IMG/VR virus record: IMGVR_UViG_3300017923_000001
Span: 1 to 39,320 of that record
Direction: 5' to 3' (one strand)
DNA length: 39,320 bases
Source of the DNA: a virus
The position numbers were made by a program, and so were the translations under genes. The notes below the pieces were generated by a model. The model was not told where the DNA came from. It saw nothing but the letters and a program-made list of their open reading frames with translations, and made no database searches. Below, piece after piece: positions 1 through 34,562 of the stretch (position 1 is the first letter of the stretch; every line of letters begins with the position of its first letter).

Positions 1-123
1 GAGGTTATTTGTTTTCCATTTTTTATTAAAAATAAACAAGTTAATATAAAATTTCGTGGCCCCAAAAAATCTTTTAAATTGGTTTCTGGTGCAGAGCTTA
101 TTTGGTATAATTTCAACGCCTTA
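1..123. repeat. Left copy of 123-bp terminal repeat
   Basis: Bases 1-123 are identical to 39198-39320. The repeat lies inside the primase-helicase gene and the frame continues across it, so it marks closure of a circular or circularly permuted assembly rather than a biological duplication. Confidence 0.95.
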
Positions 124-1404
124 GAAAAAGATGAAATAATAATTTGTGAAGGTGAAATCGACGCTTTAACATGGATAGAAAATGGATTTTATAATGTAAT
201 ATCTGTACCAAATGGAGCAAACAAAAATTTAGAATATTTAGATAGTAGTATTAGATATTTTGATAATAAGAAAAAAATATATTTAGCAACAGACAACGAT
301 ACTAAAGGTATTGAATTAAAAGATGAATTAATAAGACGTTTAGGAGCGGAGAAGTGTTATCTTTTAAATTTTAAACAATATAAAGATAGCAATGAATATT
401 TTGTAAATGAAGGTGGTATTGAATTAAAAAAACTTATTGATAATGCTAAACCTGTACCGATTAAAGGTGTTGTTAATATAAATTATTTGTATAATGATAT
501 TGTTGATTTATACGAAAATGGAATACAAAGAGGTTTTTTAATTGAAAACAATGATATTGATAAGTACATAACTTGGGAACTTGGAAGGCTTGCCATTGTT
601 ACCGGAGTGCCAGGTAGTGGTAAAAGTGAGTTTGTAGATTATTTAGTTTCACGATTAAATTTATTATATGGTTGGAAAGCCGCATATTTCACACCTGAAA
701 ATTATCCTTTAAAATATCATTATAGAAAAATACATGAAAAATATTCAGGTAAAAAGTTTGATAAAAAAACAGACAACACAGATTTTTATAGTATTTACGA
801 ATATATTAAAGACAATTTTTTCTATATTTTGAATGAAGATGATATGAAAGTTGAATCAGTTATTAACTCGGCAAAAGCTCTTGTTAATCAAAAAGGTATT
901 AAAATTCTTGTGATTGATCCTTACAATAAATTAGAACATCAATATAGTGATAGCGAAACGCAATATATCAGTAGATTTTTAGATAAGATTACAAATTTTG
1001 CAAAGTTTAATAATGTATTGATTTTTTTAGTTGCCCATCCTCGAAAAATGCAAAAAGGAGAAGTGCCAACTTTATATGATATTTCGGGAAGTGCTAATTT
1101 TTACAATAAAGCAGATTACGGATTTACTGTGCACAGAAAAAGAGATGATGAAACTAATTTAATGATAAATGAAGTTGAAATTTACTGGCAAAAGATAAAA
1201 TTTAAAAATTTGGGAGAACAGGGCGTTAGTGAATTGCGATATAATTATATTAATGGGCGTTTTGAATCAATTAACGATGATATAGATCATTGGGATTATA
1301 CCAATTGGCTATTTAAAGAAAAACAAAAAGAAATAAAAGATGTTAATTTTTGGGATGAAATTTCTGAAAATAACGATTTTGAAAAAGATGAAGTACCATT
1401 TTAA
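1..1404 (+). CDS. Primase-helicase, C-terminal part (5' part at 38841)
   Basis: T7 gp4-like replicative primase-helicase, which makes primers and unwinds DNA at the phage fork. The frame is open at base 1; because the window ends repeat each other, the 5' part is the ORF at 38841, giving a joined protein of 586 residues. In joined numbering a TOPRIM core is visible (CEGEID near 168-173, ATDND at 215-219), followed by a RecA-like helicase domain with Walker A GVPGSGKS (321-328) and a Walker B-like ILVID ending at D425. A TTG at 79 is internal and not the start. The next gene follows after 11 bases. The split is only where the circular map was opened. Confidence 0.93.
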   Translation, partial: EVICFPFFIKNKQVNIKFRGPKKSFKLVSGAELIWYNFNALEKDEIIICEGEIDALTWIENGFYNVISVPNGANKNLEYLDSSIRYFDNKKKIYLATDNDTKGIELKDELIRRLGAEKCYLLNFKQYKDSNEYFVNEGGIELKKLIDNAKPVPIKGVVNINYLYNDIVDLYENGIQRGFLIENNDIDKYITWELGRLAIVTGVPGSGKSEFVDYLVSRLNLLYGWKAAYFTPENYPLKYHYRKIHEKYSGKKFDKKTDNTDFYSIYEYIKDNFFYILNEDDMKVESVINSAKALVNQKGIKILVIDPYNKLEHQYSDSETQYISRFLDKITNFAKFNNVLIFLVAHPRKMQKGEVPTLYDISGSANFYNKADYGFTVHRKRDDETNLMINEVEIYWQKIKFKNLGEQGVSELRYNYINGRFESINDDIDHWDYTNWLFKEKQKEIKDVNFWDEISENNDFEKDEVPF

Positions 1405-1891: not shown

Positions 1892-3004
1892 ATGAAAAAA
1901 ATAGGATTAATAGATAATGATTTTGTTATGAGAAAAAACCATAATTTTCCTAATTTGGCTTTGATGAAAATAAGTTCATATTTAAAAAATAAAGGTAACG
2001 AAGTTGAATTGATTGGCTTTAATGAAATAAATCCTAATAGCTTATTTCCACATAATTATGATATAATTATAGTTTCAAAAGTATTTTTAGATACAAAAAC
2101 TCCTGATTTTATAAATAGCATGAAAAACGTTATAATTGGTGGTAGCGGTTTTTTTTATGATAAAGCTACTTTTTTGGATGAAGAAATAGAGCATTCTAAA
2201 CCAGATTATAATTTATATAACAAAGTTTTGCCTATAATAAAAAATAAAAAAAATTACACAGATGTTTCTATTGGATTCACAACGCGCGGATGTTTCAGGA
2301 AATGCCCATTTTGTATTAATAAAAACTATAATAAGGTAGAATTGCATTCTCCTGTATCAGAATTTTTAGAAGTAAATAGACCAATAGTAACTCTGCTTGA
2401 CGATAATGTTTTAGGGTTGCCGAACAGCAAGTTATTTTTATTATTAGAGCAATTAAAACAAACTGGCAAAAAAATACAATTTAAACAGGGTATGGATATT
2501 AGATTAATAACCAAAGAAAGAGCGAAAAAAATATTTGAACTAAAATATGAAGGAGATTATTATTTTGCTTTCGATATGTGGAAATATAGAGATGAAATTG
2601 TAAAAAAATTAAAAGTATGGCATACGCAGTACTATAAGTTCAAAAATAGTAGTTCTAAAAGAATTAATACTAATTTTTATGTTTTTTGTGCTTTTGATTA
2701 TCAAAATAAATATAATTTGGATTTTTGGATAAATGATATAAAAATAATTTTTAAACGTATCAATATTCTTTTTTCTTTTGGATGCTTACCTTTTGTAATG
2801 AGATACAAGGAATGGGAAAATTCACCATTTAGAGATATTTATATAAATATTACCCAATGGGCAAACCAACCAGCTAATTGCGCTAAATATAGTTTTTTAG
2901 AATATATAGAAATGGCAAAAAAAACAAACGCTATTAAGTTTTTAAATAAATATCCAGATTTCAGAAGTTATTTTGAACTTAAATTATCTAAAATTGCCCG
3001 ATAG
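1892..3004 (+). CDS. Radical SAM protein with B12-binding-like N-terminus
   Basis: 370 residues. The cluster motif CFRKCPFC (C134, C138, C141) is the CX3CX2C signature that holds the 4Fe-4S cluster of radical SAM enzymes. The N-terminus (KIGLIDND, then NLALMKISSYLKNKGNEVEL) looks like the Rossmann-type domain often paired with radical SAM modules of the B12-binding type, although no cobalamin-binding DxHxxG is visible. The substrate is unknown; RNA, protein or nucleotide modification are all possible. It follows the replication genes by 11 bases and ends in a small hairpin (TTGCCC gata GGGCAA, 2993-3008), just before the cassette array. Confidence 0.75.
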   Translation: MKKIGLIDNDFVMRKNHNFPNLALMKISSYLKNKGNEVELIGFNEINPNSLFPHNYDIIIVSKVFLDTKTPDFINSMKNVIIGGSGFFYDKATFLDEEIEHSKPDYNLYNKVLPIIKNKKNYTDVSIGFTTRGCFRKCPFCINKNYNKVELHSPVSEFLEVNRPIVTLLDDNVLGLPNSKLFLLLEQLKQTGKKIQFKQGMDIRLITKERAKKIFELKYEGDYYFAFDMWKYRDEIVKKLKVWHTQYYKFKNSSSKRINTNFYVFCAFDYQNKYNLDFWINDIKIIFKRINILFSFGCLPFVMRYKEWENSPFRDIYINITQWANQPANCAKYSFLEYIEMAKKTNAIKFLNKYPDFRSYFELKLSKIAR

Positions 3005-3082
3005 GGCAAAAGAGGGGAGAAAAAACTGTTATTGCGGACAAATAGCAGTAACCTTGATTAAATGCACAGACTTAGTGCTTGT

Positions 3083-3216
3083 GTATAACGATTGAGTGTA
3101 ACCGCATGTAGCGGATTAAATAGTAATAACTTATCAAAATAAACGAATATGAACAAAGAGCAGAATACTTCGCAAACCACAGAATCCGCTATTGCGGTTG
3201 ACACTGTGTTAGCAAC
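3083..3216 (+). repeat. attC-like site 1
   Basis: Left core GTATAAC 3083-3089, 5-base spacer, left arm 3095-3117, loop with the start codon of the next gene (3149), right arm 3183-3205, 2-base spacer, right core GTTAGCAAC 3208-3216. The arms share AGTGT/ACACT, AACCGC/GCGGTT and AGCGGATT/AATCCGCT, with an unpaired G at 3200 five pairs into the stem. Confidence 0.7.
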
Positions 3217-3403
3217 TGGGCTTTATTGTATTAAAGTTCAAGCTAATCATGATTGTTGGATTGCCGATTGGAATGGTGACCCTGGAAGAACATTAGTAAA
3301 AGAAAACGCAAAAACATTTAAACGTAAATCGGATGCTGAAAAGTTATGCAACGAAATGAAGATAAAATATCCAAATCGAAATGTTTGGGTCGATGTCTTT
3401 TAG
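3149..3403 (+). CDS. Cassette gene A, small protein of unknown function
   Basis: 84-residue soluble protein with no family I recognise. It has one strongly aromatic stretch (CWIADWNGDPGRTL) and a charged C-terminal half ending NRNVWVDVF. The ATG lies in the loop of attC-like site 1, and codons 13-23 are encoded by the site's right arm and right core, so the first quarter of the protein is dictated by the recombination-like site. The stop is 4 bases before the terminal core GTTGCTAAC. Reading frame intact and codon use like its neighbours; a genuine gene is likely. Confidence 0.65.
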   Translation: MNKEQNTSQTTESAIAVDTVLATGLYCIKVQANHDCWIADWNGDPGRTLVKENAKTFKRKSDAEKLCNEMKIKYPNRNVWVDVF

Positions 3404-3410
3404 CCTTGTT

Positions 3411-3621
3411 GCTAACGGTTCTCGGCTATACGTCAGGTTTTTTACGGATTTGAAACACTAAATTAAAATATATGATGCAAGTAATTGAAATGACACACTC
3501 TGAAAAAGTAGAGATGTATCAAATGGTAAAAAAAGATAAATTGATAGAAATGTTGATAGAGGCAAACAATGTTATTAACCGACTAACGGAAGTAAAAAAC
3601 TTACGTATAGCCGATGTTAGC
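3411..3621 (+). repeat. attC-like site 2
   Basis: Left core GCTAAC 3411-3416, 6-base spacer, left arm CGGCTATACGT 3423-3433, long loop, right arm ACGTATAGCCG 3603-3613 (perfect 11-bp complement), spacer AT, right core GTTAGC 3616-3621. The loop carries the first half of gene B. Confidence 0.72.
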
Positions 3622-3714
3622 GGTTCGTTGCCCTGCCATCATAACTATATTCAGAAAGATACCTATTGGAAAAGTTGCACTCATTGTGGAATGATAGCAC
3701 CATTAGGGCAATGA
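3472..3714 (+). CDS. Cassette gene B, small CxxC protein
   Basis: 80 residues. The N-terminal half is helical (VEMYQMVKKDKLIEMLIEAN); the C-terminal half holds CHHN and a CTHCGM motif that together could bind one zinc ion, as in many small phage proteins of unknown role. The gene begins in the loop of attC-like site 2, runs through its right arm and core (encoding RIADVSG), and its TGA stop is embedded in the closing core (gggcaaTGAccgctaac). MQVIEM one codon later is an equally good start. No specific function can be assigned. Confidence 0.65.
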   Translation: MMQVIEMTHSEKVEMYQMVKKDKLIEMLIEANNVINRLTEVKNLRIADVSGSLPCHHNYIQKDTYWKSCTHCGMIAPLGQ

Positions 3715-3722
3715 CCGCTAAC
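3616..3722 (+). repeat. Complementary ends of cassette B
   Basis: GTTAGCGGTTCGTTGCCC (3616-3633) can pair with GGGCAATGACCGCTAAC (3706-3722), so the unit's two ends are complementary well beyond the 7-base core, apart from a small bulge. Confidence 0.7.
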
Positions 3723-3771
3723 AGATGCGTATAGGCGGTCGTTTTAATGCCGCCTATACGTTGTTAGCGGT
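3714..3771 (+). repeat. attC-like site 3 (compact)
   Basis: The shortest site, 58 bases: ACCGCTAAC 3714-3722, spacer AGATG, arm CGTATAGGCGG 3728-3738, loop TCGTTTTAATG 3739-3749, arm CCGCCTATACG 3750-3760, spacer TT, GTTAGCGGT 3763-3771. Arms and outer cores are perfectly complementary. The same 11-base loop recurs at 5516-5526. Confidence 0.8.
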
Positions 3772-3806
3772 TCGTGCCGGATTATTAACGAATAAACTTA
3801 AATAGA

Positions 3807-4460
3807 ATGAGAATTTTAGTAGCCTGTGAAGAAAGCCAGGCATTGACAAACAGATTTAGGGAGTTAGGACACGAGGCTTTTTCTTGTGATATACTTCCTT
3901 GCAGTGGCGGACATCCTGAATGGCATTTACAGCAAGATGTAACCGAATTGCTAAAACAGAAATGGGATATGATTGTAGCGTTTCCGCCATGCACATACCT
4001 AACTGTAACAGGTAACAGATGGTTTAATATTGACCGATACGGAGAAAAAGCCGTGCAAAGGCATAAAGACCGTGAAGAAGCGATTAAATTCTTTTTGATG
4101 TTCGCAAATGCTGATTGTGATTATATCGCTATTGAAAACCCAGTAGGAATAATGAGTAGCGTATGGCGGAAACCCGACCAAATAATTAACCCTTATGAAT
4201 TTGGCGACCCATACGAAAAGAAAACGTGTTTATGGCTTAAAGGACTTCCACCATTAACGCCTACGAATGTGGTAAAACCTGAACCACGAAAAAAATTTAA
4301 GAGCGGTAAAACAATGCCTGGCTGGTATGCGGATGCTTGGAAACTACCAAAAGATGAACGTGCTAAACTTCGGTCAAAGACGTTTCCAGGAATTGCACAG
4401 GCTATGGCTACTCAATGGACAAATTTTGTTTCGGAGCAGTCAGTTAGGCATGACCGCTAA
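3807..4460 (+). CDS. Cassette gene C, cytosine-C5-methyltransferase-like protein
   Basis: 217 residues of the short phage type of DNA cytosine methyltransferase. The N-terminal SAM site reads LVACEESQALTNRFRELGHE, FPPCTYL (C62) corresponds to the catalytic Pro-Cys motif, and IENPVG (about 109-114) to the ENV motif; YEFGD and KTCLWLKGLPPL are typical of this group. It is shorter than host enzymes and lacks an obvious separate target-recognition domain. Likely role: methylating phage DNA against restriction, which is inferred. It lies wholly inside its cassette, and its TAA stop is part of the closing core. Near the stop a second GTTAGGCA (4443-4450) looks like a vestigial core. Confidence 0.8.
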   Translation: MRILVACEESQALTNRFRELGHEAFSCDILPCSGGHPEWHLQQDVTELLKQKWDMIVAFPPCTYLTVTGNRWFNIDRYGEKAVQRHKDREEAIKFFLMFANADCDYIAIENPVGIMSSVWRKPDQIINPYEFGDPYEKKTCLWLKGLPPLTPTNVVKPEPRKKFKSGKTMPGWYADAWKLPKDERAKLRSKTFPGIAQAMATQWTNFVSEQSVRHDR

Positions 4461-4868
4461 CGTCCCGGGAAATATGGGACGGAATTTTAAGGGCAATCAT
4501 AGCCCTGTCAGACAGTAGAAAATTTAATATTAACCAATAAATAGTAAAATTATGGACAAACCAAATCAAGAAAAAATTAACATAGACATAAGAAATCTTA
4601 CATATTTAGCTATATATCTTGAAGGTATTAAAGCGGGTAAGGGAAATTTATCTCCACTTGGAACTATTACAATTGAAAACTTGTGGAATACTATAAAATA
4701 TTTAGAAGGCGATACAAGATATAAGTGCGAATAATTTTACGGACTCATAGCACCGCCCTTAAAATTCTGTGCTATGATTTCGAGTTGTAGTTAGTCATCT
4801 TTGGAATATGAAGAAACTTAGAAGCAATACAGCATCCGTGCGAAGCCTTATTTCCCGGGACGTTGTAG
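4453..4868 (+). repeat. Junction 4: long hairpin enclosing gene D
   Basis: ACCGCTAAC (4453-4461) runs straight into an arm without a spacer: AACGTCCCGGGAAATA 4459-4474 pairs perfectly with TATTTCCCGGGACGTT 4849-4864, followed by GTTGTAG (4862-4868). Inside are a nested pair (GAATTTTAAGGGC near 4481 with GCCCTTAAAATTC near 4755) and a hairpin TCATAGCAC/GTGCTATGA (4745-4777). It differs from the other sites in lacking spacers and having a large branched loop. Confidence 0.6.
4552..4734 (+). CDS. Cassette gene D, small protein of unknown function
   Basis: 60 residues: a charged N-terminus, a helical stretch (RNLTYLAIYLEGIKAGKGN) and a second helix (TIENLWNTIKYLEGD). No family recognised. Unlike most genes in the array it lies entirely inside the loop of junction 4, preceded by an A-rich leader and not touching the cores. 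Its length and intact frame support a real gene, but the function is unknown. Confidence 0.55.
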   Translation: MDKPNQEKINIDIRNLTYLAIYLEGIKAGKGNLSPLGTITIENLWNTIKYLEGDTRYKCE

Positions 4869-4940
4869 TCAATTATCGTGGACTGTGGGTGTGCCGGAAG
4901 AGGGTTTAGGCGGATGCCGTGCTGGATGATTGACTACAAC
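4862..4940 (+). repeat. Non-coding mini-cassette (79 bp)
   Basis: GTTGTAGTCAAT (4862-4873) and ATTGACTACAAC (4929-4940) are a perfect 12-bp inverted pair enclosing about 55 bases with no ORF. Together with the 3' half of junction 4 and junction 5 it fills the stretch 4735-5044, in which I see no gene on either strand. Confidence 0.65.
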
Positions 4941-5030
4941 GGCTGGCGGTATGAAGCGTACCGCATTGTACAACGCTTCAAATTATTAACAAGCCTTTCT
5001 GCGGTATGCTTTATGACCGCTTGTTAGGCA
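4934..5030 (+). repeat. attC-like site 5
   Basis: CTACAAC 4934-4940, spacer GGCTG, arm 4946-4964 (GCGGTATGAAGCGTACCGC), loop, arm 5001-5020 (GCGGTATGCTTTATGACCGC), spacer TT, GTTAGGCA 5023-5030. G5015 is unpaired five pairs into the stem, as in sites 1, 10 and 11. Confidence 0.78.
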
Positions 5031-5044
5031 CAGTACTTTTTAAA

Positions 5045-5242
5045 ATGACAAACAAAGAACGGAACTTAATTAAAAAGAAAATATTAAAATGCTTAACCGA
5101 AGATTTTAAAGGAAATCAAGCGATATTCGATAAAAAAGAGGGTTGGCAAGTGTTTAATGGAACTGATTTGGATATGGTAATGAATGCCGTATGCAAAGGT
5201 TTAGAAATGGCAAAATACGAGATGCACGATGGCGTTTCTTAG
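5045..5242 (+). CDS. Cassette gene E, small protein of unknown function
   Basis: 65 residues from the ATG at 5045 (MTNKERNLIKKK). The frame is also open from an ATG at 5006 inside the right arm of site 5, which would add LYDRLLGTVLFK; that same arm-and-core peptide (YDRLL) appears at the start of gene K, so translation may begin in the hairpin. The body is helical and mixed in charge (DLDMVMNAVCKGLEMAKYEM). No family recognised. The gene ends 4 bases before the complement of its opening core (GTGCCTAAC, 5247-5255). Confidence 0.6.
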   Translation: MTNKERNLIKKKILKCLTEDFKGNQAIFDKKEGWQVFNGTDLDMVMNAVCKGLEMAKYEMHDGVS

Positions 5243-5248
5243 TATTGT

Positions 5249-5515
5249 GCCTAACGGACAGGTATATGAGCCGTGCGGATTAACCTACTAACAATTGAAC
5301 GAGGTACACAGTAATAATTTTAAAATATTTTTAGGGATGGAAAAAATAAAAGTAAAAATACCAGAAAAATGTAAAGATTGTGTTTACGTGAATAAAAAAG
5401 GAAATTGTTGGGCTTTGAAAGATAAATGCAACCCAAACAGTATGAATTGTGATTATAGGAAAGATGAAGAGGCGAGCTACAAACGCAAGCATGGCTTATA
5501 TACCATGTTGTAGCA
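5249..5515 (+). repeat. attC-like site 6
   Basis: GCCTAAC 5249-5255, spacer GGACA, arm GGTATATGAGCCGTGC 5261-5276, loop containing all of gene F, arm GCATGGCTTATATACC 5489-5504 (16 pairs, two of them G-T), spacer AT, GTTGTAGCA 5507-5515. Confidence 0.75.
5337..5513 (+). CDS. Cassette gene F, small cysteine-rich protein
   Basis: 58 residues from the ATG at 5337 (MEKIKVKIPEK); an upstream ATG at 5295 is in frame but less likely. Five cysteines within about 30 residues (CKDC, CW, KCN, NC) suggest a zinc-binding fold. The gene occupies the loop of site 6; its last codons are encoded by the right arm (HGLYTML) and the TAG stop overlaps the right core GTTGTAG. It resembles general small phage zinc proteins, with no assignable function. 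Confidence 0.6.
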   Translation: MEKIKVKIPEKCKDCVYVNKKGNCWALKDKCNPNSMNCDYRKDEEASYKRKHGLYTML

Positions 5516-5534
5516 TCGTTTTAATGTGCTACAA
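5507..5534 (+). repeat. Minimal hairpin cassette with loop TCGTTTTAATG
   Basis: TTGTAGCA (5508-5515) and TGCTACAA (5527-5534) pair perfectly around the 11-base loop TCGTTTTAATG (5516-5526), which is identical to the loop of site 3. Here the stem is made of cassette cores rather than site arms; there is no room for a gene. Confidence 0.75.
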
Positions 5535-5962
5535 TGTTGCGGGCTGTATATGATGGATTTTGCGGATATGTTATTAAACATATTCTTAAATTTGATTAAC
5601 TGATTTACTTATGTTAAATTGCATTAAACTTTAATACATAAAATTATGAAAAATGATAAAATTTATTATGAATCTAATGAACATGGATGGTGTTTTACTG
5701 AATGCAAAGTAGTAAAAGGTTGTATGATAGGATCGGTCGGGTGTAGAAATTGTAAAAATCATATTACTCATGGTAAAAAATACAAGTACGTACGATGTAA
5801 AATCTTTTACGATGCTGTTAATGGCAAATAATTTTATGTTTGCTCATCCGCAAAATATGTCATATGACAGCTAGTTAGATAGAGTTGCCTTTGGATTTGG
5901 TAGCCTGTTAATTAGTTAGTCATATGACTGTGTGGATGGAATACAGCCCGCAACATTAGATC
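5527..5962 (+). repeat. Junction 7: long hairpin enclosing gene G
   Basis: ATGTTGCGGGCTGTAT 5534-5549 pairs perfectly with ATACAGCCCGCAACAT 5941-5956, without spacers beside the cores. Nested inside are ATTTTGCGGAT 5557-5567 with ATCCGCAAAAT 5846-5856, and two copies of the palindrome GTCATATGAC (5859-5868, 5919-5928). The region 5832-6049 carries no gene apart from these structures. Confidence 0.6.
5646..5831 (+). CDS. Cassette gene G, small cysteine-rich protein
   Basis: 61 residues. Cysteines at WCFTEC, KGCMIGSVGCRNCKNH and VRCKIF resemble the small phage proteins with a GSxxCxxCK motif, probably zinc-binding. The gene lies in the inner loop of junction 7, preceded by an AT-rich leader (ataaaattATG), and is separated from the flanking cores by nested hairpins. 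No function can be given; the motif makes a real protein likely. Confidence 0.65.
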   Translation: MKNDKIYYESNEHGWCFTECKVVKGCMIGSVGCRNCKNHITHGKKYKYVRCKIFYDAVNGK

Positions 5963-6040
5963 GAATTGGCTTTGGTCGTGCTGTTGCAAGGATGGGCGAC
6001 TGTAAGGAGCTAGGATGGATAGCGGGCAATTCGATCTAAC
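5955..6040 (+). repeat. Non-coding mini-cassette (86 bp)
   Basis: ATTAGATCGAATTG (5955-5968) and CAATTCGATCTAAC (6027-6040) are complementary at 13 of 14 positions. The 58 bases between hold no ORF. The opening core is ATT rather than GTT, the only such case in the array. Confidence 0.65.
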
Positions 6041-6160
6041 GTTTCGGCTATGTGCAGTGCCGTAAAACTTGCACTAACTTTAATAAATGCAGAAATGACA
6101 CAAGATATAATGAACTTAGATGATAGCACTAAACAGGCATTGCATATAGCCTATGTTAGC
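6035..6160 (+). repeat. attC-like site 8
   Basis: TCTAAC 6035-6040, spacer GTTTC, arm GGCTATGTGCAGTGCC 6046-6061, loop, arm GGCATTGCATATAGCC 6136-6151 (16 pairs, two of them G-T), spacer TAT, GTTAGC 6155-6160. Confidence 0.75.
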
Positions 6161-6322
6161 GAGAGTGATTTGTTATTCAGAGGTAGGACAAAAGAATTAG
6201 CATTTTTCAATTACAAAGATGGTGATATTGAAATATCTATTGATGATGGAGAAAACAACACTTTCATATTAAACAAAGAGCAAATAGATGCAATGTTGGC
6301 GTGGATTAATCATTCTCGCTAA
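6095..6322 (+). CDS. Cassette gene H, small protein of unknown function
   Basis: 75 residues from the ATG at 6095 (MTQDIMNLDD); an upstream in-frame ATG at 6050 sits within the left arm of site 8 and would add 15 residues. Codons for ALHIAYVSES come from the right arm and right core of the site. The protein is acidic (DGDIEISIDDGENN) and soluble, with no family recognised. The TAA stop is part of the closing core CTCGCTAAC, and the first and last 16 bases of the cassette (6155-6170, 6308-6323) are complementary at 15 positions even though both are coding or overlap the stop. Confidence 0.62.
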   Translation: MTQDIMNLDDSTKQALHIAYVSESDLLFRGRTKELAFFNYKDGDIEISIDDGENNTFILNKEQIDAMLAWINHSR

Positions 6323-6450
6323 CGGATTACGGCTATGAAGCGTTGCCGATAAAATGCTTCTAACTATCAAATTATAACAAAATGGAATTAAAAGCAGTAC
6401 CGATTCAATTACCTGACGATTTAGGCAATGATTTATTAGCCGATGTTAGC
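6318..6450 (+). repeat. attC-like site 9
   Basis: GCTAAC 6318-6323, spacer GGATTA, arm CGGCTA 6330-6335 with further pairing CGTTGCC 6341-6347 to GGCAATG 6424-6430, arm TAGCCG 6437-6442, spacer AT, GTTAGC 6445-6450. An internal loop separates the two stem segments. Confidence 0.68.
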
Positions 6451-6747
6451 GTTAGTAATTTAATGCAAGACGTTACATCGAAGCTAATTAGCGACATACA
6501 AGATAAAAGAAACAAAGTGATTACCGAGCGATTAAAAGAAATTGTTGGTATTGATTTAAACATTGAAGAAGAAGCAAAGCGAAGGTTCAAAAGATTTGCT
6601 ATCGAATATAATGGAAATGAAGAAACAATTTATTTTAATGATGGCAGTATTGAAGGTAAACGAATAGTGACATTTGTTAGAAAAGAAAATCCATTAAAAT
6701 TTGAAACTGATAGATGCGAAATGAGCGTTGGCTATTCCTATTATTAA
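6382..6747 (+). CDS. Cassette gene I, protein of unknown function
   Basis: 121 residues. The ATG lies in the loop of site 9 (ataacaaaATG), and the right arm and core encode LADVSVS. The rest is a helical stretch (LISDIQDKRNKVITERLKEI) and a beta-rich C-terminal half (NEETIYFNDGSIEGKRIVTF). No family recognised. The gene stops just before the closing core; GTTAGCGTTAGTAA (6445-6458) and TTATTAACGCTAAC (6741-6754) match as complements at 13 of 14 positions. Confidence 0.66.
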   Translation: MELKAVPIQLPDDLGNDLLADVSVSNLMQDVTSKLISDIQDKRNKVITERLKEIVGIDLNIEEEAKRRFKRFAIEYNGNEETIYFNDGSIEGKRIVTFVRKENPLKFETDRCEMSVGYSYY

Positions 6748-6870
6748 CGCTAACGGTACGCAAATATGAAACGTGGCAAACGAAAAGCCACAACAAAGAT
6801 ATGAATTTGAAATTAACATAAATATTAATTAGATGCACGACAGCCATGTTTTATGATTTGCTGTTAGGCA
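6748..6870 (+). repeat. attC-like site 10
   Basis: CGCTAAC 6748-6754, spacer GGTAC, arm 6760-6777 (GCAAATATGAAACGTGGC), loop, arm 6843-6861 (GCCATGTTTTATGATTTGC), 1-base spacer, GTTAGGCA 6863-6870. The 18-pair stem has one unpaired G at 6855 and a few G-T pairs. Confidence 0.76.
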
Positions 6871-6888
6871 TCTGTAAAAATTACGGAT

Positions 6889-7092
6889 ATGAAACGATAC
6901 ATTATTTTATTTAATAACGGACAAATAGTTCAACAAATTGGATTAAATACAACTTACCTACAATTACATAGTGTAGGAGTAATAAAATTGATAATAGATA
7001 CCAAAGAAGGAAAGATATTAACTGGTGAAAAATGGGAATGGAATACTATCCCAGAATATCACGACAGTTCATTAGTGGCAGACACTAAGTAA
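6889..7092 (+). CDS. Cassette gene J, small protein of unknown function
   Basis: 67 residues with a beta-rich pattern (RYIILFNNGQIVQQIG, VIKLIIDTKEGKIL) and a tryptophan pair (EKWEWN). No family recognised. The gene starts 18 bases after the opening core and ends before the closing core. The cassette ends are complementary in two blocks: GTTAGGCA with TGCCTAAC, and AAAAATTAC (6876-6884) with GTAATTTTT (7089-7097). Confidence 0.6.
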   Translation: MKRYIILFNNGQIVQQIGLNTTYLQLHSVGVIKLIIDTKEGKILTGEKWEWNTIPEYHDSSLVADTK

Positions 7093-7102
7093 TTTTTATT
7101 GT

Positions 7103-7236
7103 GCCTAACGGCTGGCGGTATGCGCTCGTGCCGTAAACAAATAACGAATTTATCAATTTAAAAATAACTTAGATATGAAAAACGAACAATCGAATACTAA
7201 CGAAAAAGGCATGGCGTATGACCGCTTGTTATGCAC
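7103..7236 (+). repeat. attC-like site 11
   Basis: GCCTAAC 7103-7109, spacer GGCTG, arm 7115-7132 (GCGGTATGCGCTCGTGCC), loop with the gene K start, arm 7208-7225 (GGCATGGCGTATGACCGC), spacer TT, GTTATGCAC 7228-7236. G7220 is unpaired. Spacer sequences and the first arm bases are nearly the same as in site 5. Confidence 0.78.
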
Positions 7237-7588
7237 TGGCCTTAACGATGCAGCTAAACAGATACACGAAGATGCTAAACGCAAAGGATTCTGGGATAGC
7301 GAGCGAGAAACAGGAACTTTATTGATGTTGTGCGTGAGCGAACTCTCCGAAGCATTAGAAGCTGACAGAAAAGGTAGAGTAGCCAACTTGGACAAATTTG
7401 ACAAAGGAATTGCTCATGGCGACATATTTGAAACTTACATAAAAGATACATTCGAGGACGAGTTGGCGGACACAGTTATACGAATACTCGATTTATGCGG
7501 TGCGAGGGGAATAGACCTTGAAAGACATATAAACCTTAAATTGAAATACAATCGTTCACGCGAGCGGATGCACGGAAAAGCTTATTAG
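7175..7588 (+). CDS. Cassette gene K, MazG-like nucleotide pyrophosphohydrolase
   Basis: 137-residue all-alpha NTP pyrophosphohydrolase of the MazG-like group. SELSEAL (E56, E59) and EDELAD (E96, D99) form the ExxE...ExxD magnesium site. Such phage enzymes hydrolyse (d)NTPs or may lower ppGpp-type signals; which applies here is unknown. The ATG lies in the loop of site 11, and residues 14-21 (AYDRLLCT) are encoded by the right arm and core; a second ATG at 7211 is inside the arm. The closing core GTGCATAAC (7593-7601) is the last of the array. Confidence 0.82.
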   Translation: MKNEQSNTNEKGMAYDRLLCTGLNDAAKQIHEDAKRKGFWDSERETGTLLMLCVSELSEALEADRKGRVANLDKFDKGIAHGDIFETYIKDTFEDELADTVIRILDLCGARGIDLERHINLKLKYNRSRERMHGKAY

Positions 7589-7680
7589 GCTTGTGCATAA
7601 CTACTATTATGTAGACAAATACAATTAAAACACTAAACATTAGTCAGTTAAAATTATTAAAGTTTTAAAATATTAAACAA

Positions 7681-7929
7681 ATGGCAGAATTTAAAGATGA
7701 CTATTCAAAAATATTAAACACTTTTGTTCAAAAAAGAAAGAAGGCAATGACTGAACAGGATATTGCTAATGCTTTAGGAGTATCAAAAGCGACTATATCT
7801 AATTTTGAAGCGAACAAACGGCAAAATTTCGATCTCCTGGAATGTTACGCTAATATTTTTGGGAATCATTTGAATATAAGGTATTGGGTGGCCATTTTAA
7901 AAGCTGGGATGAAATTGAGCAACATATGA
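7681..7929 (+). CDS. Helix-turn-helix (XRE/Cro-type) regulator, possibly with altered C-terminus
   Basis: 82 residues. Residues about 20-55 (MTEQDIANALGVSKATISNF) form a standard Cro/CI-type helix-turn-helix, so it likely binds phage operators as a dimer. The last 20 codons overlap, in another frame, a stretch clearly homologous to the C-terminus of the gene at 32278, which suggests that recombination or a frameshift changed this protein's end. It is the first gene after the cassette array, with a 79-base AT-rich leader. No repressor-type dimerisation domain is present. Confidence 0.78.
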   Translation: MAEFKDDYSKILNTFVQKRKKAMTEQDIANALGVSKATISNFEANKRQNFDLLECYANIFGNHLNIRYWVAILKAGMKLSNI

Positions 7930-8360: not shown

Positions 8361-8803
8361 TGGCAGCACCAAAGGGAAATAAGAATGCATTAGGAAATAA
8401 TGGTGGTCGTCCCGCTTTATTTGTAAACAAAGAAGACCTACAAAAAAAAATAGATGAATACTTTAATGACGGTGCTAATGAAAGGGATTTTATAGTTGGT
8501 TCTGGAAGCAAACAGCAAGTAATTAAGCTAAAGGTTTTTACATTAACTGGATTAGCTTATTATCTTGGATTTGAAAGCAGACAGTCTTTATATGATTACG
8601 AAAAATTAATTGAGTTTTCTTACACAATAAAAAGAGCTAGGTTAAGAATAGAGATGAATTATGAAGAAAACTTGCAATATGGGAATACTACTGGAGCCAT
8701 ATTTGCCTTAAAAAACATGGATTGGTCAGATAGGCAAGAAATAGATCAGAACAATACAGGCGAAATAACAATCACTCGCAAAATAATTAATAGCAAAGAA
8801 TGA
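8360..8803 (+). CDS. terS: Terminase small subunit
   Basis: 147 residues resembling the P22 gp3-like DNA-packaging family: a basic N-terminus (APKGNKNALGNNGGRP), a helical DNA-binding core (LTGLAYYLGFESRQSLYDYE) and the conserved RARLRIEMNYEE region, ending GEITITRKI. It recognises the packaging start on phage DNA and recruits the large subunit. The order small then large terminase with overlapping start and stop (ATGA at 8800) supports the call. Confidence 0.85.
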   Translation: MAAPKGNKNALGNNGGRPALFVNKEDLQKKIDEYFNDGANERDFIVGSGSKQQVIKLKVFTLTGLAYYLGFESRQSLYDYEKLIEFSYTIKRARLRIEMNYEENLQYGNTTGAIFALKNMDWSDRQEIDQNNTGEITITRKIINSKE

Positions 8804-23000: not shown

Positions 23001-23361
23001 GCTGGTAGAAGAAATAACAAGTTATGAGGATGAAAGCTCGGGAAGTAACACGTATACGACTATCCCTGGTGGCGGTGAGTCGCAGGAGGTAGATTTGACA
23101 AATTACTATACTAAGAGCGAAACAGATAGTTTAATCGTTGGAAAAACAGGACGTTTTACTGGGTCCCAATTAACAAATAATCAAATTACAATAGTTCACA
23201 GTCTTGGAATTGATACGATAATTTTTTATCTTTACGACATGAATAACAAGCTAATAAATGACAGTAATTATGATATTGAAGTTATTAGCGCAAATTCAAT
23301 AAAATTAACATTATACAAGCCAATAGGCGCAACAGACCAAATTAAATATCGAGTATTATGA
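20029..23361 (+). CDS. Large tail protein (tail tip / fibre)
   Basis: 1110 residues, the largest protein. The first part is mostly beta; a middle segment (CYDVLEEILTLLQASICQIN, then GRWHLLPI, about 570-600) resembles the baseplate-hub-like region of Bacteroidota phage tail proteins. The C-terminus carries LTNYYTKSETDSLI, a motif common in tail fibres, followed by a small beta domain. It probably forms the tail tip or central fibre and contacts the host surface. Its base composition becomes AT-rich and repetitive in the first two thirds. Exact homology not clear by eye. Confidence 0.8.
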   Translation: MSFETKYKHSFRDFYNRLWELHLKKEGYAGEVYNLSGGADPVMITDPNQGASKLTPIRGTELRANLLIDTEAVYNFKDDFWGITDREWQAILYKAANSTYMAECEILNFNLLNSAASAKGSIEVLNVGHEDIEIKCDCSFDILISPDIGTTKELKLYAVPRTEDNTYYGRKLLGTVMVDDNDTTENVIDKIALLDKWSKIDYHTVRYTQTTPDDDLNSSWDIKISYMEDTYNAYTFYPYYYFYGLTETDWLKIDLISKNLNSSEPSVTNLGTRYYINYESTLDIAQWIVDHLDGKTIPNVIFPPSGQIINVTFSSYRENNLVYIYLLNIGSMGNTFDIKNTLENDTYLRIHKKVGATYNWNSIDFSGGTDGGDEFKIEVDKGTGFEILASVIATSSDTAASVINKLVNKINNNYSIFSAEVDPTNSSKLRIITESGSGWNYRFTTNGGSTLTPTTSTPFEEITDKQLYWAGWVVPEIFEQDHLSGKVAIDLSAVDGLGDLKNFEFKIEDRNPFEPLSFMDIIISSLQKTGFIFNIEESFHLWHLQSYGSQSPLKQVFQESARLNGKNCYDVLEEILTLLQASICQINGRWHLLPITKQTSSYTSRVFDYFGNYLEDVVRNDFIKNTGGVTRDNKFIDRNTKIAFESGYRKVNVKQDYGFINQLILFPSFNSINENLINIQYPWKWMFEGIIQSSFLNEIYKREDGTLFITDYLSHSLERFYLYQKLNFSEIQVANSDEKQYKLKITYQQDPNAAETIKIRIWTTDGTTIVYLSDYYDTSPFTTNPVGEFIYLIGNASNNQKTFSLSFDYPSDLLTTTESDLHIEIYQPENKYILLKSVELTLNTIAVTGKKVSSYFSELKDNLSSKIFEKDLNLGDIPNIQNAINIYKNSLFYFDGSENKRLTSAWVEDPANPVNQKSLIDHYRKFVLDQYPTGIFKLTGSILGQLNLRDIIRDKSNGDKLFMLTGGELNIKKCILSGEWVEIGKDTSGFSLVEEITSYEDESSGSNTYTTIPGGGESQEVDLTNYYTKSETDSLIVGKTGRFTGSQLTNNQITIVHSLGIDTIIFYLYDMNNKLINDSNYDIEVISANSIKLTLYKPIGATDQIKYRVL

Positions 23362-24392
23362 AAAAACTATTAACATTATTATTATTTGTGCCTTTGTTTG
23401 TTCAAGGGCAGCAGGCATTTTATGGTACCAGGCAATTTGTGAGTTTGGACGGTGCAGACACTTTAGAGTTATCATATAAACAAGATACTATATTTTTCAG
23501 CTCGACAGATTCGGTATATTTTGAAAAGTTGATGAATAGTACAGGTGGTACTGTTTCTTTTGGAACTAATGGACAGATTGCTTTTACTAATCCCGCAGGA
23601 ACGGATTTTGAATATTCGCCTAATTTTATTTATAAAAATGATAGTAATTCTTTTACAGCTGGATATAGAATTGGAACTATAGGAATTAATAGCGTTGTAA
23701 TGGGTGGTGATGTTGGTTACGAGAATGAAGCAAGTGGTAGTAATTCAACAGCTTTTGGACGTAGTACAACAGCAAGTGGTGGTAGTTCTACAGCTTTTGG
23801 AAATAGTACAACAGCAAGTGGTGATTATTCAACAGCTTTTGGACGTAATATAACAGCAAGTGGTAATTATTCAATAGCTTTTGGATATAATATAGCAGCA
23901 AGTAATCTTAATTCAACAGCTTTTGGACGTAGTACAACAGCAAGTGGTGGTAGTTCTACAGCTTTTGGAAATAGTACAACAGCAAGTGGTGATTATTCAA
24001 CAGCTTTTGGACGTAGTACAACAGCAAGTGGTCGTTATTCAACAGTTTTTGGATATAATACAATAGCACATGATTATTTAGAAACAACACTCGGTCAATA
24101 TAATATAATAGGAACAGGTTCAGCAATATCTTACGTCAATACAGATAATTTGTTTACAATAGGAAATGGGGCATCTGACACTGAACGTTCTAATGCTTTT
24201 CAAATTAAAAAGAATGGTAATACTACTATTTTTGGCGGATTAGAAGTGTCAACCACAACAGATGCTTTTATTGTACCCCGAATGACAACAACAGAACGAG
24301 ATGCTTTGGTTGGAGTTAATGGAATGATAATATACAATACAACAACGAATCAATTTAATTTTTATGAGAATGGAAGTTGGGTAACTAAATAA
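23358..24392 (+). CDS. YadA-like repeat fibre with signal peptide
   Basis: 344 residues. It opens with MKKLLTLLLFVPLFVQGQ, a convincing secretion signal, unusual for a phage particle protein. Residues about 125-240 are a tandem 14-residue repeat (STAFGRSTTASGGS type), as in the left-handed beta-roll of trimeric adhesins such as YadA. The C-terminal part (PRMTTTERDALVGVNGMIIY, then NTTTNQF) resembles chaperone-type or trimerisation ends found in bacterial outer-membrane adhesins. It probably forms a trimeric fibre. It overlaps the preceding gene by 4 bases. Confidence 0.8.
   Translation: MKKLLTLLLFVPLFVQGQQAFYGTRQFVSLDGADTLELSYKQDTIFFSSTDSVYFEKLMNSTGGTVSFGTNGQIAFTNPAGTDFEYSPNFIYKNDSNSFTAGYRIGTIGINSVVMGGDVGYENEASGSNSTAFGRSTTASGGSSTAFGNSTTASGDYSTAFGRNITASGNYSIAFGYNIAASNLNSTAFGRSTTASGGSSTAFGNSTTASGDYSTAFGRSTTASGRYSTVFGYNTIAHDYLETTLGQYNIIGTGSAISYVNTDNLFTIGNGASDTERSNAFQIKKNGNTTIFGGLEVSTTTDAFIVPRMTTTERDALVGVNGMIIYNTTTNQFNFYENGSWVTK
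23731..24062 (+). repeat. 42-bp tandem repeats (14-residue units)
   Basis: Eight 42-base units encode the STAFG...TTASG repeat. A block beginning ATTCAACAGCTTTTGGACGT recurs exactly 168 bases (four units) later (about 23743 and 23911), which shows recent unit duplication. Confidence 0.85.
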
Positions 24393-34163: not shown

Positions 34164-34562
34164 ATGGCAAAAAAGAAAAAGACAGTAGCTAAACTAAAAC
34201 AGGATGTGCAAAAAATTTTCAATGAATATATCCGATTAAGAGATATAGATAAACCTTGCATAAGCTGTGGACAATTTAAGGATAATATGCAAGCCGGTCA
34301 TTTCTTTTCAGTAAGAATGTATGATGCTTTAAGATTCGATGAGGATAATTGTGCAGGGGAGTGTTCTGGTTGTAACTGCTTCAATGATAGCCATTTAATA
34401 CCTTATAGAGATAATTTGTTGAGCCGGATAGGGCAACAACGATTTGATGAATTATATGAAAGGGCGGCAAATTATAAAAAAAACGGATACAAATGGAGCA
34501 GGTCTGAACTTTTAGAGCTTAAAGAATATTATCAAAAAAAAGTTAAAGAATTAAAAAATTAA
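34164..34562 (+). CDS. NinG-like recombination protein
   Basis: 132 residues of the lambda NinG (Rap) family, a junction-specific nuclease that helps phage recombination. Motifs: PCISCGQFKDNMQAGHFF, YDALRFDEDNC, CSGCNCF and the YRDNLLSRIG region with the Cys-based zinc site. It fits with the ERF protein upstream as a recombination set. Confidence 0.87.
   Translation: MAKKKKTVAKLKQDVQKIFNEYIRLRDIDKPCISCGQFKDNMQAGHFFSVRMYDALRFDEDNCAGECSGCNCFNDSHLIPYRDNLLSRIGQQRFDELYERAANYKKNGYKWSRSELLELKEYYQKKVKELKN

Follow-up and report, generated by a model that had tools for sequence, protein, structure and literature searches.

Clusters of attC-type recombination sites that stand in phage genomes with no integrase beside them have a precedent. 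Qi et al. 2023 (PMC9892861) described 17 such integrase-less phage attC clusters (CALINs), one of them in P12002L, a Polaribacter phage and thus a phage of Bacteroidota, and found IntI1 to be active on five of the six phage attC sites tested, the bottom strands being the more active. Here we describe an array of attC-like sites and small genes in IMG/VR virus record IMGVR_UViG_3300017923_000001, whose full 39,320 nucleotides (nt) constitute the window of this analysis; an earlier note, made from the letters of this DNA, had read the array as an integron-like cassette platform carried by a phage. As in the published CALINs, attC-type site clusters are combined with small genes, often methyltransferases, and no integrase is present. 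The window array differs from them in that the site stands ahead of the gene, in the frequent occurrence of gene starts within the site, and in that natural exchange between phages can be seen.

In cellular genomes, the IntegronFinder 2.0 survey (PMC9024848) found integrons to be rare in Bacteroidetes, listing a single complete integron, in Salinibacter, next to earlier In0 elements, while elsewhere the IntI-specific domain has been taken as defining (PMC9668308). Published Xer/IntI-related enzymes without the insertion resemble those considered below; the report on them, in the passages that concern them, does not tie them to cassette arrays, whereas here they stand beside arrays in both phages and chromosomes. 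A literature search over open-access papers returned no paper on flipped or inverted cassette arrays; the flipped architecture and the patch-less platform described here appear to be new.

On the sequence evidence, we consider it highly probable that the array would be an integron-like platform of a tailed phage which has lost its own recombinase, and that its units would be moved in trans by a Xer/IntI-related enzyme lacking the IntI patch. The mobile unit would consist of a folded, attC-like single-strand site plus one gene, the site often holding the leader and the start codon, and site-specific recombination would excise and insert units at the AAC in front of it (cut AA^C), acting on the sense strand, the one that folds best. 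The likely enzyme would be a small tyrosine recombinase of the patch-less family, with a longer form beside Bacteroidota chromosomal arrays; for the window it would have to be supplied by the host or by a co-infecting phage.

Exchange and reordering of units

Sequence comparison indicates that single array units pass between unrelated phages at precise points and come to stand in new orders (loci and contigs other than the window are labelled L with a number). The window unit at 3086-3418 recurs with 99.4% identity in two phage contigs, L402 and L403 (41.7 and 43.8 kb), and the unit at 6752-7110 with 100% identity in L402, where it lies directly upstream of the copy of the first. This order is the reverse of that in the window, where unit 3086-3418 sits 3.3 kb upstream of unit 6752-7110; units in different order in related phages are what the earlier note had suggested looking for. 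At the L402 junction, GTGCCTAAC closes one unit and GATTGAGTG opens the other, the two meeting exactly at AAC, and beyond these two units the 12-kb L402 locus has no homology to the window. L402 and L403, in turn, have three segments in common (98.6-100%), in shuffled order.

Furthermore, counterparts of the window unit at 6320-6754 are found in L346 (90% identity), L347 (81%) and L348 (73%, to 6686), loci which show little or no other homology to the window, and L076 and L136 have one 455-nt unit in common (99.8%), the only homology in 11-12 kb. These whole-unit transfers are bounded by AAC on both sides, with the exception of L347, where the cores are AAT. Single-gene, site-specific trading between unrelated phages comes into view here, for which units, cut point and candidate enzyme can be named. 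As sources of comparison, the TerL relatives L002-L074 were rejected for their few sites, and the pair L227/L228 because the two are a single phage (99.99% identical) whose cassettes do not differ.

Structure of the sites and units

A site opens with AAC and some 5 nt of spacer; two stem arms enclosing a loop come next, and about 2 nt then separate the second arm from the closing GTT. The complementary arms were found where the earlier note had placed them: seven GTT...AAC pairs with a score of at least 12 lie in 3000-7700, against 0.05 expected from 100 dinucleotide shuffles (maximum 1 per shuffle), and in 8000-39000 of the window there are no sites with a score of at least 12.5. All four Watson-Crick pair types occur at nearly every arm position and, counted on ungapped arms, 81% of the positions are paired in register versus 27-34% when the arms are slid. 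AAC and GTT are present in all cores; the published GTTRRRY/RYYYAAC consensus, given in the earlier note, is complete in only some of them.

The two halves of a site differ: the spacer is longer on the left, and where a G.T wobble occurs its G belongs to the left arm. Site orientation was called from this asymmetry, the two criteria giving the same direction for 130 of 132 phage sites and for all 39 chromosomal ones. An extra base in the right arm is seen in six window sites, but as the sole orientation marker the extrahelical base was discarded as ambiguous (it lies in the right arm, at positions 4-7, in 18 sites but in the left arm in 4), and other sites carry an extra T at 9-12 of the left arm. 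A covariance model from a MAFFT alignment of the window sites was also dropped, the alignment being too gappy because the spacers differ. A short class of sites, of about 43 nt from AAC to GTT and often with an apical CGTTTTAATG, occurs at 3720-3765 of the window, L018 111-152, L285 14064-14111 and L346 6371-6412.

The array runs from 3087 to 7601 as eleven tandem units of hairpin site plus gene, each from AAC to AAC. The units had been described earlier as going from a GTT core to its complement; the complementarity of the end arms stands (exact over 8-10 nt in 9 of the 11 units), but the limits are AAC and AAC. The genes of most units reach the following AAC or stop just short of it. Seven open reading frames (ORFs) start within the hairpin loop (3149, 3472, 4552, 5337, 6095, 6382 and 7175), that at 4552 lying wholly within it and the remaining six continuing through the GTT.

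Pfam gave no match above cut-off for ten array ORFs scanned. Phage homologues exist for the methyltransferase and the MazG-like ORF, the former being 80% identical at the amino-acid (aa) level, over residues 1-204, to those of Cellulophaga phages phi18:1 and phi17:1. In phi18:1 the methyltransferase gene overlaps its upstream neighbour by a few bases, an arrangement that would fit the capture of this ORF into a cassette.

Orientation of the sites relative to the genes

In comparison with integron cassettes, the sites point the opposite way with respect to the genes, so the unit is a site plus the gene downstream, starting at the AAC ahead of the site and ending at the AAC after the gene. Of 49 pairwise segments, the majority have homology that sets in at AAC and extends beyond GTT, towards or into the downstream gene. 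In a class 1 integron control the common aadA1 cassette runs from GTT through the attC on the far side of the gene; by the integron rule of a gene with its attC after it, the control is canonical and the window units are not. Of the cassette platform first proposed, then, the array and the exchange of its units stand, and the integron arrangement of gene and site does not.

In 22 phage-type loci 158 genes run parallel to the site and 20 against it, L295 being an exception to this trend, and 66 ORF starts fall within 147 sites. The 16 Bacteroidota loci that adjoin a related recombinase have 54 antiparallel and 2 parallel genes, and one start within 46 sites. Phage loci were picked by site pattern or cassette gene and chromosomal loci by recombinase, so that the contrast is strong in a sample that is not random; among Bacteroidota loci found by site pattern both orientations occur.

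These data bear on an explanation of a different nature, namely that RNA elements (processing sites, terminators or 5′ untranslated-region structures) account for the hairpins and ordinary homologous or illegitimate phage recombination for the mosaic. The better-folding strand is the sense strand in phages and the hairpins hold leaders and start codons, as such elements might, and there is one family in which leader and hairpin stay constant while the ORF changes. On Bacteroidota chromosomes, however, the same asymmetric hairpins lie opposite to the genes (2:54), so that the wobble is not tied to the direction of transcription, and since the better-pairing strand is sense in the one and antisense in the other, RNA structure does not explain the conservation. 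Moreover, whole units of near-100% identity have limits that fall exactly at AAC and lack homology beyond them, the cores at the gene end and gene start of one unit are complementary, and Rfam gave no match at the array up to E=1 (a single unrelated sub-threshold match appeared in the scan). We therefore regard the RNA explanation as very unlikely.

A second alternative is the capture by a phage of ordinary integron cassettes, with classical attC sites and a host IntI. The overall anatomy is alike, and IntI1 uses the attC sites of other phages in Escherichia coli (PMC9892861). Such an origin nevertheless seems unlikely to us: the unit is a site with a downstream gene instead of a gene with a downstream site, no IntI above the family cut-off was found in the 14 bacterial genomes containing the site sequence, and the recombinase beside related arrays is devoid of the IntI patch. 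L322 and L324, considered as isolate hosts, were set aside as having too few sites for an array.

The candidate recombinase

The window has no match to tyrosine recombinases (PF00589, Phage_integrase) or to serine recombinases/resolvases (PF00239), and the circularity of the genome claimed together with this absence is borne out as well, as 123 identical bases at both window ends, an exact terminal overlap, imply a circular assembly. In six related phage contigs (L285, L286, L353, L295, L402 and L349), the terminal AAC of the array is followed, 35-52 nt further on, by the start of a small recombinase gene that shares the strand of the array (6694-7497 in L402). From that start these enzymes measure about 266-280 aa; they are Xer-like, 28-44% identical to the L402 enzyme, and retain invariant R, K, H, R, H and Y catalytic columns together with an N[IL]KH motif. 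For the array-linked enzymes scanned, the best NCBIfam match is NF040815. Array-linked relatives score 83-212 bits on TIGR02249 (IntI), whose cut-off is 265, and the two phage enzymes scanned are both below it. The IntI patch is absent from the phage (three aligned) and chromosomal enzymes aligned with IntI1, and the nearest solved folds are XerA (the best) and IntI4 (model pTM, predicted template modelling score, 0.58). The integron-type recombinase envisaged in the earlier note is thus missing from the window, as stated there, and the likely enzyme would be patch-less and Xer-like instead of a classical IntI. The role of the IntI patch becomes testable, a patch-less family being found beside comparable arrays.

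The end motif AACTACTAT is similar in the window, L402 and L403, the last AAC being followed by TACTATTATGTAGACAAATACAATTAA, TACTATATATAAACCAACACAATCAA and TACTATATATC, respectively. In L403 the recombinase is reduced to a 79-aa frame. A similar attI-like end accompanied by an intact, a broken and an absent recombinase suggests loss in the window lineage.

It could be argued that the XerC/XerD of the host, which serve dimer resolution, move the units on folded single strands with no dedicated recombinase. CTX phage DNA is a precedent for XerC/XerD action on folded single strands, the array-linked enzymes are Xer-like by both NF040815 and fold, and the majority of phages in the set encode none themselves. 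When a phage does encode a small tyrosine recombinase of this type, however, it lies immediately after the array end in the six contigs above, and we find the XerC/XerD explanation doubtful.

Several observations do weigh against a cassette platform served by a patch-less enzyme. PF00589 matches are present in only 4 of 30 other contigs and most array contigs have no recombinase, so the assignment of the enzyme rests on six contigs. One of the segments common to L402 and L403 (284 nt) stops at GTT instead of AAC. The array has three irregular stretches (4459-4940, 5507-5534 and 5536-6040), units 4459-4940 and 5253-6040 departing from the regular plan, and the earlier picture of eleven small genes separated by repeats is accurate as to number, not regularity: ten units bear an ORF and one has none, and because 5253-5954 holds two, the array has eleven ORFs. 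Finally, the unit 5 site module recurs in L292 (99% identical) and L288 (98%), where it flanks different ORFs; in this family site, leader and 3′ tail are constant and the ORF varies, which simple cassette movement leaves unexplained. One site and leader around different ORFs also makes the origin of cassettes testable. In L138, L142, L184 and L286, one site and a 60-90-nt leader ending near TTTTTAGGGATG precede four different genes, as a constant expression module.

Chromosomal counterparts in Bacteroidota

Searched with a profile of four of the phage enzymes, 230 of 396 Bacteroidota genomes contain members at E<=1e-30, Xer-like proteins included, and about half of the best 30 chromosomal loci have sites of the array type within 1.5 kb. 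In seven loci (L384, L387, L388, L389, L391, L392 and L394) genes and sites form a row that opens, at its 5′ end, with a recombinase of 345-391 aa encoded on the strand of the genes; these enzymes reach 205-212 bits on TIGR02249, again under the cut-off. In the recombinase tree phage and chromosomal labels cluster, although the placement of long branches is unsure. The chromosomal cargo includes GmrSD, Schlafen-like, AbiEii-like AAA and LinB-like nucleotidyltransferase proteins and a beta-lactamase fold. The rows of L384-L401, with genes and attC-like sites, patch-less recombinase and defence- or resistance-like cargo, may represent a kind of chromosomal integron that has escaped notice.

The integrons on Treponema chromosomes (PMC3607928) have the direction of the recombinase in common with these arrays; they differ in their classical IntI and in that their extracted genes are bounded by attC, with no overlap of site and gene. 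The Bacteroidetes integrons of PMC9024848 are likewise cassette arrays in this phylum, and the arrays described here are set apart by a paired enzyme below the integron-integrase cut-off. Searches requiring a classical IntI would probably miss the Bacteroidota chromosomal arrays. On balance we favour the view that Bacteroidota and their phages harbour a separate integron-like branch with a patch-less recombinase, in which phage cassettes would be flipped, the site giving leader and start codon and the sense strand recombining, units would shuttle between unrelated phages, and recombinase-less phages would be served in trans.

A phage-type array with four sites and parallel genes was also seen in L308, a 3.3-kb contig of a metagenome-assembled genome labelled Lokiarchaeota. 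It is likely a misbinned phage contig, which bears on reports of integrons in Asgard archaea.

The phage and its other genes

The window phage is probably a tailed phage with a host in the phylum Bacteroidota. The features of the array and the reference genes are collected in Table 1.

Table 1. Features of the array and reference genes in the window.
Feature	Position	Strand	Remarks
Primase/helicase	79-1404		PHROGs
Unit 1 attC-like site, AAC..GTTAGCAAC	3087..3210	+	extra base in right arm, 5 bp in
Unit 1 ORF, 84 aa	3149..3403	+	start within site
Unit 2 attC-like site	3414..3618	+	
Unit 2 ORF, 80 aa	3472..3714	+	start within site
Unit 3 short-type attC-like site, apical CGTTTTAATG	3720..3765	+	
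Unit 3 ORF, phage DNA methyltransferase (phrog_757), 217 aa	3807..4460	+	
Unit 4 attC-like site, long loop with 60-aa ORF	4459..4786	+	second nested arm pair 4459-4474/4848-4863
Unit 4 ORF, 60 aa	4552..4734	+	in loop
ORF-less segment GTTGTAGTCAAT..ATTGACTACAAC, end of unit 4	4862..4940	+	
Unit 5 attC-like site (GCGGT-ATGAAGCGTACCGC)	4938..5025	+	
Unit 5 ORF, 65 aa	5045..5242	+	
Unit 6 attC-like site	5253..5509	+	
Unit 6 ORF, 58 aa	5337..5513	+	in loop, continues through GTT
ORF, 61 aa, within irregular segment 5536-5954 bounded by GTTGCGGGCTGTAT/ATACAGCCCGCAAC	5646..5831	+	
ORF-less hairpin unit	5952..6040	+	
attC-like site after ORF-less hairpin unit	6038..6157	+	
ORF, 75 aa	6095..6322	+	start within site
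attC-like site of unit 6320-6754	6321..6447	+	
ORF, 121 aa	6382..6747	+	start within site
attC-like site of unit 6752-7110	6752..6865	+	
ORF, 67 aa	6889..7092	+	
attC-like site of last unit	7107..7230	+	
ORF, 137 aa, MazG-like pyrophosphatase (phrog_9236)	7175..7588	+	start within site
Terminal core and attI-like motif AACTACTATTATGTAGACAAATACAATTAA	7599..7632	+	similar to end motif of L402, L403
Small terminase	8360		PHROGs
TerL (label used for the ORF at 8800)	8800		matches annotated large terminases
Portal	9918		PHROGs; capsid and tail genes named likewise

Just ahead of the array, at 1892-3004, lies a gene for a radical SAM protein (phrog_9298), and a similar-looking gene is found inside the L353 array (3405-4313). 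A gene for a NinG/Rap-type Holliday-junction endonuclease (phrog_171) occupies 34164-34562, with ORFs that look HNH-like by eye in its vicinity (34569, 36553 and 37721). The protein encoded at 23358-24392 contains repeated FGRSTTASGGSSTAFGN motifs which, also by eye, resemble the head repeats of trimeric autotransporters.

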